A stretch of 64,000 bases of DNA from Flavobacterium xinjiangense (GTDB taxonomy: Bacteria; Bacteroidota; Bacteroidia; Flavobacteriales; Flavobacteriaceae), in contig NZ_FRCL01000005.1 in assembly GCF_900142885.1 (NCBI RefSeq), forward strand, positions 62,001 through 126,000, in the 5' to 3' direction. Numbering within the stretch: position 1 is the stretch's first letter; the number at the start of each line of letters is the position of its first letter. This document shows positions 4,157 through 53,203 of this stretch, piece by piece. Both the position numbers and the translations under genes were made by a program. The notes below the pieces were generated by a model, which saw nothing but the letters and a program-made list of their open reading frames with translations, did not search any database and had not been told where the DNA came from.

Positions 4157-5251
4157 ATGAAAGCAGGAATTGTAGGATTACCTAATGTTGGAAAATCAAC
4201 ATTATTCAATTGTTTATCAAATGCAAAGGCGCAAAGTGCTAACTTTCCTTTTTGTACCATCGAACCTAATATAGGTGTAGTAAATGTGCCGGATTCCAGA
4301 ATGGAAAAATTAGAGGAATTGGTTAAACCGGAACGTGTGCAAATGGCAACCGTAGATATTGTAGATATTGCAGGTTTAGTTAAAGGAGCAAGTAAGGGAG
4401 AAGGATTAGGAAATCAGTTTCTGGGAAATATTAGAGAATGTAATGCAATCATTCATGTTTTGCGTTGTTTTGACAATGATAACATTGTTCACGTTGATGG
4501 AAATGTAAACCCAATTCGAGACAAAGAAACCATTGATATTGAGTTGCAGTTGAAAGATTTAGAAAATGTAGAAAAACGTTTAGAAAAAGTAAATCGTGCC
4601 GCTAAAACAGGAAATAAGGAAGCACAAACAGAGAAAGCACTTTTAGACCGAATCAGAGAAACGTTACTTCAGGCAAAATCCGCTAGAATTGTGGTTCCTC
4701 AAAACAACGATGAAGAAGTTTTGATGGAAGGTTTCCAGTTGATTACGGCAAAACCAGTGTTGTATGTTTGTAATGTTGATGAAAATTCAGCCGTTAGCGG
4801 AAACAAATATGTTGATCAGGTTCGCGAATTGGTTAAAGACGAAGATGCCGAAGTAATTATTCTTTCGGTTGGAGCTGAAGCTGATATTACGGAATTAGAA
4901 AGCTATGAAGAACGTCAGGTTTTTCTGGAAGATATGGGATTGACCGAGCCAGGTGCATCAGTTTTGATTCGTGCAGCATACAAATTATTGAAACAACAAA
5001 CGTATTTTACTGCGGGAGTTAAAGAAGTTCGTGCTTGGACCATCAATATTGGAGCAACTGCGCCACAAGCGGCAGGAGTGATTCATACTGATTTCGAAAA
5101 AGGATTCATCCGCGCCGAAGTTATCGCTTACGAAGATTTCGTTCATTACGGTTCAGAAGCAAAATGTAAAGAAGCCGGAAAATTCAAGGTAGAGGGAAAA
5201 GAATACGTTGTAAAAGATGGTGATGTAATGCATTTTAGATTTAACGTCTAA
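4157..5251 (+). CDS. ychF: redox-regulated ATPase YchF
   Basis: 364 residues, the usual length for this universally conserved Obg-family P-loop protein, which prefers ATP over GTP and binds ribosomes. The P-loop GLPNVGKST is at residues 7-15, the G3-equivalent DIAGLVKGAS follows, and the G4 position reads NVDE instead of NKxD, which is the family signature for ATP preference. A coiled coil (about residues 130-200) and a C-terminal TGS domain ending MHFRFNV complete the protein. The first ATG places the P-loop at the expected position. It is transcribed alone: a promoter-like element lies upstream and a terminator follows directly. Confidence 0.97.
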   Translation: MKAGIVGLPNVGKSTLFNCLSNAKAQSANFPFCTIEPNIGVVNVPDSRMEKLEELVKPERVQMATVDIVDIAGLVKGASKGEGLGNQFLGNIRECNAIIHVLRCFDNDNIVHVDGNVNPIRDKETIDIELQLKDLENVEKRLEKVNRAAKTGNKEAQTEKALLDRIRETLLQAKSARIVVPQNNDEEVLMEGFQLITAKPVLYVCNVDENSAVSGNKYVDQVRELVKDEDAEVIILSVGAEADITELESYEERQVFLEDMGLTEPGASVLIRAAYKLLKQQTYFTAGVKEVRAWTINIGATAPQAAGVIHTDFEKGFIRAEVIAYEDFVHYGSEAKCKEAGKFKVEGKEYVVKDGDVMHFRFNV

Positions 5252-5258
5252 AAAAAAA

Positions 5259-5288
5259 GTCATAAAGTCGAAAGTCATAAAGTCGAAA
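5259..5288 (+). repeat. 15-base tandem direct repeat
   Basis: The 15-mer AGTCATAAAGTCGAA occurs twice head to tail (5259-5273 and 5274-5288) directly after the ychF stop codon. The second copy supplies the left arm of the following terminator hairpin, so the repeat looks like a small local duplication of terminator sequence. Confidence 0.8.
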
Positions 5289-5314
5289 GTTAGTAATAAC
5301 TTTCGACTTTTTTT
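5279..5314 (+). terminator. ychF terminator
   Basis: Twelve-base perfect stem AAAGTCGAAAGT / ACTTTCGACTTT with an eight-base loop, followed by a T tract. It lies 28 bases after the ychF stop. Confidence 0.85.
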
Positions 5315-5510
5315 GTACCTATTTCCAGCTTTCTACTACAAACGAAGTTCACTGAACTCCATTTAAAATAAAAGTTTAGTGAAGTAATATTTTTCAGGTC
5401 AATCTCTTTTTTCTAAGACAAAAAAGGAGCTTCCTTCGGTCACTCTTTTCCGTCAAGAAAAAATGAGATTGACCTGAAAAATACTTTTCGTTTCAATCTG
5501 GGGTAAAATC
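5314..5510. repeat. palindromic intergenic repeat, copy A
   Basis: This fills most of the 374-base gap between ychF and the FMN reductase gene. It starts with CCTATTTCCAGCTTTCTACT (5319-5338), which is related to the left ends of the copies at 13081 and 21955. It continues with AACGAAGTTCACTGAAC (5341-5357) and GTGAAGTAAT, both also found in the 22.1-kb copy. It then holds a perfect 19-base inverted repeat (5388-5406 and 5465-5483, core CAGGTCAATCTC). Its loop, AAAGGAGCTTCCTTC followed by GTCACTCTTT, is nearly identical to the loop in the 22-kb copy. No coding frame is present. Confidence 0.7.
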
Positions 5511-5625: not shown

Positions 5626-6147
5626 ATGAAAATTATAGCTTTTGGCGCAAGCCCCAGTAAAAACTCCATCAATAAAAAATTAGCGACTTACGCTGCAAAT
5701 CTTTTTGAAAATGGAGAAGTGGAGGTTTTGGATTTAAATAATTTCCAAATGCCGATTTTTACAGTTGACATCGAAAAAGAAATTGGTCAGCATGAATTAG
5801 CCAAAATTTTTCTGTCAAAAATTGCTACAGCAGATATATTAGTAGTTTCAATGGCGGAAAATAATGGTAATTATTCTGCCGCTTTCAAGAATGTTTTTGA
5901 TTGGTGTACCAGAATAAATTCCAAAGTTTTTCAGGATAAACCAATGTTACTTATGGCAACATCTACGGGAGCGAAAGGAGGAGCAAGTGTTTTGGGAATA
6001 GCTAAAAATGCTTTTCCTTTTTACGGCGGAAATATAAAAGCTACTTTCTCGCTGCCTAGTTTTGACGCTAATTTTGATGTCGAAAACGGGAAAATCTCAA
6101 ATCCAGAATTGGACAGTCAGTTGAAAGACCTTATTAAGAATTTTTAA
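5626..6147 (+). CDS. NAD(P)H-dependent FMN reductase
   Basis: 173 residues of flavodoxin-like fold. The N-terminal GASPSKNSINKKLA is the FMN-phosphate loop of NADPH-dependent FMN reductases, and the middle carries the PxYxxS-like region in modified form (MAENNGNYSAAFKNVFDWC), which normally holds the flavin ring. The family reduces FMN, quinones or azo compounds with NAD(P)H in the cytoplasm. The length is normal and the start is the only ATG near the flavin loop. The next gene follows after 17 bases on the same strand, so the two may be co-transcribed although they share no obvious pathway. Confidence 0.85.
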   Translation: MKIIAFGASPSKNSINKKLATYAANLFENGEVEVLDLNNFQMPIFTVDIEKEIGQHELAKIFLSKIATADILVVSMAENNGNYSAAFKNVFDWCTRINSKVFQDKPMLLMATSTGAKGGASVLGIAKNAFPFYGGNIKATFSLPSFDANFDVENGKISNPELDSQLKDLIKNF

Positions 6148-13080: not shown

Positions 13081-13155
13081 GGAGCTATTTCCTGCTATAC
13101 GTTTCAATCTTTTTTTCGTTCCTCAAAAAAGGATTTTCACTGCTATCAGGGCTAG
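13081..13155. repeat. palindromic intergenic repeat, copy B
   Basis: Begins GGAGCTATTTCCTGCTATAC and ends with GGATTTTCACTGCTATCAGG plus GCTAG. The middle is an A/T-rich imperfect hairpin (AATCTTTTTT against AAAAAAGGATT). The same outline occurs, on the opposite strand, in the copy at 15891, and the left end resembles those at 5319 and 21960. Confidence 0.65.
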
Positions 13156-13165
13156 TTTATAATAG

Positions 13166-15875: not shown

Positions 15876-15890
15876 ATTATTGTTTTTTTT

Positions 15891-15982
15891 GCGTGAGGGA
15901 TAGAAGTGGAAATCCTTTTTTATGCAGCGACAGCGGAATAAAAAAGATTGCAGCGAATAGCCCGACCCTTGCGGTCACGCCC
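15891..15982. repeat. palindromic intergenic repeat, copy C
   Basis: Bounded by GCGTGAGGGATAG and the terminal inverted complement TCACGC. Read on the minus strand it contains GGGCTATTCGCTGCAATCTT and AAAAAAGGATTTCCACTTCT, which match copy B closely. It fills the gap between the murQ start and the end of the ZIP gene. Confidence 0.7.
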
Positions 15983-18996: not shown

Positions 18997-19053
18997 AAAA
19001 TGTGTCAATTAGAAAATGATTTTAATTATCTCATTTTCTAATTGACACATTTT
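18997..19053. terminator. 23-base perfect stem between convergent genes
   Basis: Arms 18997-19019 and 19031-19053 are perfectly complementary (core GTGTCAATTAGAAAATGA) around an 11-base loop. The hairpin lies between the stop codons of the plus-strand membrane protein and the minus-strand DUF6048 gene and is flanked by A and T tracts, so it should terminate both. Confidence 0.8.
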
Positions 19054-21954: not shown

Positions 21955-22150
21955 TATTTGGGCCCATTCCCGCTTTCCGCTGCAAACCCGCAATTCCGTA
22001 AGCTGGAACACTAAGCCCGTAAAGGAGCTTCCTTCAGTCGCTCTTTACCGGCGAGAGTTCCAAAGCTTTCGGTGCTGCGGTTTTTTTGCTATAAACGAAG
22101 TTCACTGAACACATCTGAAAAATAAAGTTAAGTGAAGTAATCGGGGGCGG
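21955..22150. repeat. palindromic intergenic repeat, copy D
   Basis: Occupies much of the 457-base gap between rlmD and the small membrane protein gene. It begins CCCATTCCCGCTTTCCGCTG (compare copy A at 5319 and B at 13085). It holds an imperfect palindrome whose loop is AAAGGAGCTTCCTTCAGTCG, as in copy A, and ends with AACGAAGTTCACTGAAC and AGTGAAGTAAT, also shared with copy A. The order of the two shared blocks is reversed relative to copy A. The rest of the gap is A/T-rich leader. Confidence 0.7.
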
Positions 22151-52975: not shown

Positions 52976-52980
52976 CTTTA

Positions 52981-53045
52981 GGCCACAGATTTATAAGTCT
53001 AATTCACTTTTCGCTAATCTGTGGAAATCCTTTAAATCTGTGGCC
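52981..53045. repeat. intergenic palindrome (CCACAGATT type)
   Basis: Arms GGCCACAGATTTA (52981-52993) and TAAATCTGTGGCC (53033-53045) are perfect complements, with an internal third copy AATCTGTGG at 53017-53025. This kind of palindrome is common between Bacteroidota genes. Confidence 0.75.
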
Positions 53046-53203
53046 AAAAATTTTGTTTGGAATTAGTTGTGGATAGTCTTATAATTTAAAAGGCAATGCA
53101 ACTTTTTCTGAATTGACTTTAAGATGGGAATTCCGCGAAATATTTTTTTGGACAAAAAATTAGTGTTACTTGGTAGAGAATATCTTGCTGTGCTTTGAGT
53201 GCA

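Follow-up and report, generated by a model that had tools for sequence, protein, structure and literature searches.

The Flavo-1 RNA family (RF01705) appears in a table of PMC2864571, and a review placed it among the most abundant bacterial sRNA families (PMC9029176). In F. psychrophilum, its matches were found sense or antisense of transcribed regions indistinctly, and many of them in no transcribed region (PMC9723704). In their accessible parts, these three papers give no function for the family. Palindromic repeats of the CGTC type occur in several phyla including the Bacteroidetes and seem, from the accessible part of PMC3733652, to have no dedicated transposase. For hairpins shaped by template switching, an inversion of the loop together with copying of an arm is described in the accessible parts of PMC8794818 and PMC8604942.

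We analysed a stretch of 64,000 nucleotides, termed the window, and followed one composite hairpin in it, copy A, from its own sequence to the rest of the genome, the genus and the family. The hairpin carries two modules, M2 at its tip and M1 as an insert. No description of either was found in the literature searched, which leaves out most subscription journals.

The inverted repeat and its loop

The features are collected in Table 1; contig coordinates are the window coordinates plus 62000. The arms of copy A (left arm TATTTTTCAGGTCAATCTC) form a perfect 19-base inverted repeat, as the original prediction had stated. This length was reached in 0 of 100 dinucleotide shuffles of the window, the longest shuffled repeat having 16 bases, and among the perfect repeats of the window with spacers of up to 100 nt only one is longer. 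That one, at 18997-19053 with 23 bases per arm, has an appearance unlike the Flavo-1 family. As an RNA, copy A folds with −73.4 kcal/mol (z −9.2).

The loop contains the 15-mer AAAGGAGCTTCCTTC, which recurs in copy B at 22021-22035. With up to two mismatches allowed, these are the 2 matches in the window, where 0.12 were expected and 1 of 100 shuffles reached 2. Over a wider loop of 36 nt the two copies are 86% identical, and their arms, as read, are unrelated in sequence. A loop common to the copy at 22 kb between different arms had been claimed and is confirmed, and the coordinates given for copy A were correct to within a few bases. The proposed search of the whole genome gave a divided answer: the exact 15-mer is limited to these two sites in 3.9 Mb, but in degenerate form the loop module has at least 22 copies.

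Copy A has ychF (4157-5251) on one side and, on the other, a gene for a small protein resembling reductases (5626-6147). Both genes were named by our reading of the translations, and copy A is antisense to both. A hairpin that resembles a terminator, as read, follows ychF at 5283-5315. Elsewhere in the window, at 52977-53049, TTTAGGCCACAGATTTA and its near complement form a palindrome with 39 nt between them; a similar stretch, GCCACAGATTT, was seen upstream of the element in locus L016.

Table 1. Positions of copy A, copy B, their modules and the plain Flavo-1 elements in the window.
Feature	Position	Strand	Evidence
Copy A, whole composite hairpin	5316-5505	-	sequence; orthologous elements in other Flavobacterium species
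Frame of copy A in Flavo-1 orientation	5' half ~5484-5505, 3' half ~5316-5340	-	
M1 in copy A (46 nt), inserted in the 3' half of the frame	5341-5386	-	R2, E 1.0e-15
Left arm, perfect 19-base repeat	5388-5406	.	sequence; shuffles
M2 in copy A, apical stem-loop with the shared loop	5405-5467	-	R1, 78.5 bits, E 6.7e-13
15-mer AAAGGAGCTTCCTTC named in the original prediction	5423-5437	+	
Right arm, perfect 19-base repeat	5465-5483	.	sequence; shuffles
Plain Flavo-1 element without M1 or M2	13084-13157	-	RF01705, 69.9 bits
Plain Flavo-1 element, variant end sequence	15886-15971	+	RF01705, 59.1 bits
Copy B, composite with M2, M1 in the opposite half of the frame	21960-22147	-	sequence; R1 and R2 matches
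M2 in copy B	22003-22065	-	R1, contig 84003-84065, E 3.2e-10
M1 in copy B	22093-22142	-	R2, contig 84093-84142, E 1.9e-12

Membership in the Flavo-1 family

The plain Flavo-1 elements in the window score above the RF01705 gathering score of 42. In the whole genome at least 87 places do so, among 97 listed after scoring 150 of 1194 candidates. Copies A and B (L003 and L022) are not listed by RF01705 at the gathering score, nor at E ≤ 10, and they were not called in the window by the frame model R3, which was built from 23 RF01705 matches of the same genome. Copies of the same build do pass the RF01705 gathering score, namely L011, L019, L023 and L024 with M2 and L006, L007, L013 and L016 with M1. 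When the orthologues at the ychF site were scored with R3, L084 (E 1.6e-11), L065 (9.7e-6), L076, L087 and others matched, and copy A aligns with them. We place copy A in Flavo-1 because of its M2 and M1 modules and these orthologues. That it is a Flavo-1 element on the minus strand, with M2 and M1 as extra modules, is a reading on which, taken jointly with the folded-RNA explanation given below, our confidence is evenly balanced.

In a family sample of 120 genomes, one per genus, the Flavo-1 frame was found in 74. When the genome was searched with the whole element by blastn, most of the 44 matches covered one of two separate parts, and the element was therefore read as modular. Common palindromic arm themes were seen at unrelated loci of this genome (L005, L058 and L060; L016 and L042; L007 and L061), as if arms had been exchanged between copies.

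The modules M2 and M1

M2 is the tip of a longer Flavo-1 hairpin. A model of 41 copies (R1) found at least 22 copies in this genome at E ≤ 1.3e-5, with 150 of 5151 candidates scored, and matches in at least 102 of 150 genomes of the genus and at least 3 of the 120 family genomes, own genome included in both. Its stem covaries: two-sided changes occur in 16 of 21 pairs, with 57 such cells compared to 21.0 in shuffles.

M1 was searched with a model of 26 copies by sequence alone (R2). This gave at least 18 strong copies in the genome (E ≤ 3.7e-10) and matches in at least 95 of 150 genus genomes and at least 4 of 120 family genomes, again with the own genome included. Copy A is itself among the rows of both models, which match it at contig 67405-67467 (R1) and 67339-67388 (R2). 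In 16 of the 18 copies M1 is immediately preceded by GAT, the exceptions being copy A with TAT and L030 with AAT. As read, M1 is found in either half of the frame and in one orientation. Two M1 matches, 84 bases apart, lie at one place in L086 (18418-18552). The Flavo-1 copies L033 2703-2776 and L034 2462-2557, which are those downstream of the Y1_Tnp genes described below, contain another insert, some 28 nt long, close to the 3' end of the frame and ahead of TGCTCCTA; it is a possible third module.

Conservation and template switching at the ychF site

The contig scan with the neighbour protein yielded 80 loci, all titled as Flavobacterium except L108 and L111, and ychF was found in 76 of them. 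All intergenic regions no longer than 520 nt were read completely. Arms were compiled for 30 rows, counting the window, and in one row the tip is inverted. The nearest ychF sequence, from F. urumqiense, is 90% identical over ychF and the neighbour, and the genus of the genome was taken from such relatives. In the 29 sequences of normal orientation, the window included, the tip has an identity of 0.912 and the 5' arm of 0.567, compared to 0.474 for shuffled arms. M2 is a separate structured unit, common across the genus, and at an old orthologous site it is kept although the arms have drifted. Together with the 16 of 21 covarying pairs, these values support the suggestion that selection acts on the loop and not on the sequence of the arms.

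The element is absent from at least seven short ychF intergenic regions, and its presence requires at least 5 changes among 42 species. M1 is present in 6 of the 32 species scored and requires at least 6 changes on the tree; the M1 of copy A is absent from the same site in sister species. These M1 changes may be insertion, loss or allele exchange. A parsimony count at a second site (5 changes) was set aside, as it includes L126 and L137 of unconfirmed orthology. Most of the hairpin is gone in the intergenic regions of L085 and L078, consistent with a deletion between short direct repeats in the frame, and half of M2 is lost in L075.

In L068, the tip is the reverse complement of the tip of its sisters (26 of 26). 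Between its 5' arm and the reverse complement of their 3' arm, 26 of 27 positions agree, and its own 3' arm is almost unchanged (36 of 38). This is not a simple inversion, the 5' arm being a copy of the 3' arm. Read from these alignments, the inverted loop with the copied arm is the mark of template switching. The perfect arms of copy A could have the same origin, for which the evidence is weaker than in L068. Homogenised arms in the window copy, L084 and L087 involve few bases in each case and are no more than suggestive, whereas the clear example is L068.

Strand asymmetry of the mismatches

If mutation and DNA structure are both symmetric, G.T and A.C mismatches are expected to be equally frequent. 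In the M2 stems of the 22 copies of this genome, 19 G.T stood against 5 A.C (p 0.007). In 80 copies from 37 other genomes, which include some orthologues and were found by a covariance score that favours G.U over A.C, the count was 65 to 3 over 11 positions; these are 80 of the 87 best rows from other genomes, seven equally high rows, some near a contig end, having been omitted. In the arms of these 80 copies, positions 0-12 gave 22 to 1. The tRNA stems meant as an RNA control for these counts gave no usable structures.

The ratio in the M2 stem was weaker on other alignments, with 36:23 in relatives (A4) and 12:3 in ten rows of this genome. At the ychF site alone it was 26:11 in the M2 stem and 3:2 in the arms. 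The arms of copies without M2 showed the asymmetry weakly or not at all, with 9:1 in this genome (38 of 62 elements usable), 4:1 in Flavobacterium relatives (19 of 67) and 8:11 in other genera (51 of 60); looser versions of the arm count gave 9:7, 5:7, 8:3 and 12:4, and others 8:4, 9:4 and 9:10. The raw arm count of the 80 M2 copies, 23:47, is due to C.A mismatches that are conserved in the frame, at arm positions 13-15, and that inflate A.C. A symmetric DNA reading (cruciform) had first been favoured by near-equal counts in the own genome, which the same mismatches had inflated, and was given up after an anchored recount.

A single-strand fold appears to be constrained, at least in the copies with M2, because the mismatches of the M2 stem are nearly all G.T in the largest set. 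RNA is the likelier form of this strand; single-stranded DNA is possible.

A proposed folded RNA with a recognised tip

Since the arms vary and the tip is nearly unchanged, we favour a strand-specific structure, probably RNA, over a simple mobile repeat. Copy A would be read as a folded RNA from the Flavo-1 (minus) strand. An RNA-binding protein or an RNase would recognise the tip, GAGCGACCnnnGGAAGCUCC together with its bulge and the internal loop beneath it. The arms would form a spacer helix that is free in sequence, and selection as well as the copying of one arm from the other through template switching would keep it paired. That tip and arms act in this way, with a protein recognising the tip, stands in our judgement midway between doubt and acceptance.

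Several observations speak against it. At the ychF site copy A is antisense to both neighbours, the G.T excess is weak or missing in arms without M2, many F. psychrophilum matches lie in no transcribed region (PMC9723704, accessible part), and with DNA energies, too, the hairpin is stable on either strand. The promoter evidence points the same way. A promoter pair of the Bacteroidetes type consists of TTG and TAnnTTTG. In the 150 nt upstream on the sense strand, none of the 19 own copies that carry M2 has this pair, and none of the 45 that lack M2; on the same strand downstream, it occurred 2 times in each group.

More tentatively, and with the balance of our judgement against it, M2 might be a structured RNA module, undescribed so far and about 60 nt long, that sits on Flavo-1 scaffolds and whose tip is read by a protein, and M1 a nested mini-element that enters GAT^TG site-specifically, which together would make a layered hairpin family.

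Single-stranded DNA and mobility as rival explanations

The strand asymmetry fits any single-strand fold, and the hairpin may instead form in single-stranded DNA, for example on the lagging strand, and be moved by an HUH or other recombinase by a logic like that of REP/IS200 or attC, M1 being a nested passenger that enters GAT^TG. We regard this as unlikely, though by no means negligible. The GAT before 16 of 18 M1 copies and the occurrence of M1 in both halves of the frame in one orientation agree with such a passenger, as do the repeated changes in the presence of M1 and of the whole element; however, differences between sister species could also come from allele exchange. The Flavo-1 strand was on the lagging strand for 23 of 31 elements in G231 and G129 (p 0.011), an exploratory, post hoc count in two single-contig genomes with the skew taken at 20 points per genome and near zero in some windows, but the strands of M1 in G231 (9 versus 4) did not differ significantly. 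Conservation at an old site is also not expected of a purely selfish element.

The original prediction had named mobility by a REP-associated transposase. In the family sample, searched with PF01797 at E ≤ 0.001, Y1_Tnp was found in 37 of the 74 genomes with Flavo-1 and in 11 of the 46 others (Fisher p 0.007), so the two associate across genomes. However, the other 37 Flavo-1 genomes have no Y1_Tnp match, some of them rich in copies (G071 with 36, G049 with 28 and G070 with 23), and a Y1_Tnp gene thus does not occur wherever the repeat is abundant. This genome has two Y1_Tnp matches, one above and one below the Pfam cut-off. Both genes are flanked, as read by eye, by palindromes of their own and not by copies of the Flavo-1 repeat, with a Flavo-1 copy about 1 kb downstream of each. 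In L033 (about 1340-1400 and 1990-2100) the palindromes on both sides of the gene are of the CCGCACGAATCCTTTCGTGTGG type and are likely a separate REP family with its transposase. Neither these loci nor the distribution of Y1_Tnp supports RAYT mobility of the element, and this part of the prediction was dropped. A phage or plasmid origin was rejected after neither collection gave a match.

Neutral spread and termination as rival explanations

A selfish or neutral repeat is improbable. Its recent copies would have a tip that reflects a recent source, and template switching would keep the arms paired without selection. The many dispersed copies, the differing presence between sites and the template switch seen in L068 are in accord with this, but at an orthologous site whose arms have drifted far in the direction of random sequence the tip was kept, and 65 G.T against 3 A.C needs strand-specific selection.

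Among the 62 copies in this genome, 55 are located between ORFs, 4 overlap with one of at least 100 aa and 3 are at locus edges; the median gaps to the neighbours are 55 and 68 nt. This placement would suit a bidirectional terminator or 3'-end stabiliser between genes, which is nevertheless the least probable explanation, as the element has no fixed orientation to genes (same versus opposite strand in tandem gene pairs 13 versus 24 here and 31 versus 30 in relatives), ychF already has its terminator-like hairpin and termination does not need a conserved tip.

Comparison with known systems

The preferred reading, a folded RNA with a recognised tip, makes the tip module a conserved recognition site that can be tested, and with the count of strand asymmetry one can ask of such repeats whether RNA or DNA is the form in which they act. 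At one orthologous site, selection and template switching both appear to be at work on the same hairpin.

Like the hairpins described for template switching, L068 combines homogenised arms with an inverted loop; those hairpins are the outcome of a mutational process and not a family. With the CGTC repeats copy A shares that both are palindromic repeats in Bacteroidetes, but the CGTC foot was not seen at its ends. The GTAG repeats of the REP/RAYT system, as far as the accessible part of PMC3733652 describes them, resemble Flavo-1 in their many intergenic palindromic copies, whereas the hairpin of copy A is much longer, has a structured tip and shows no GTAG foot at its ends. With Flavo-1 (RF01705) itself copy A has in common the frame ends, irregular stem and variable arms, and where the family as printed has a short simple loop, copy A carries M2 at the tip and M1 as an insert.
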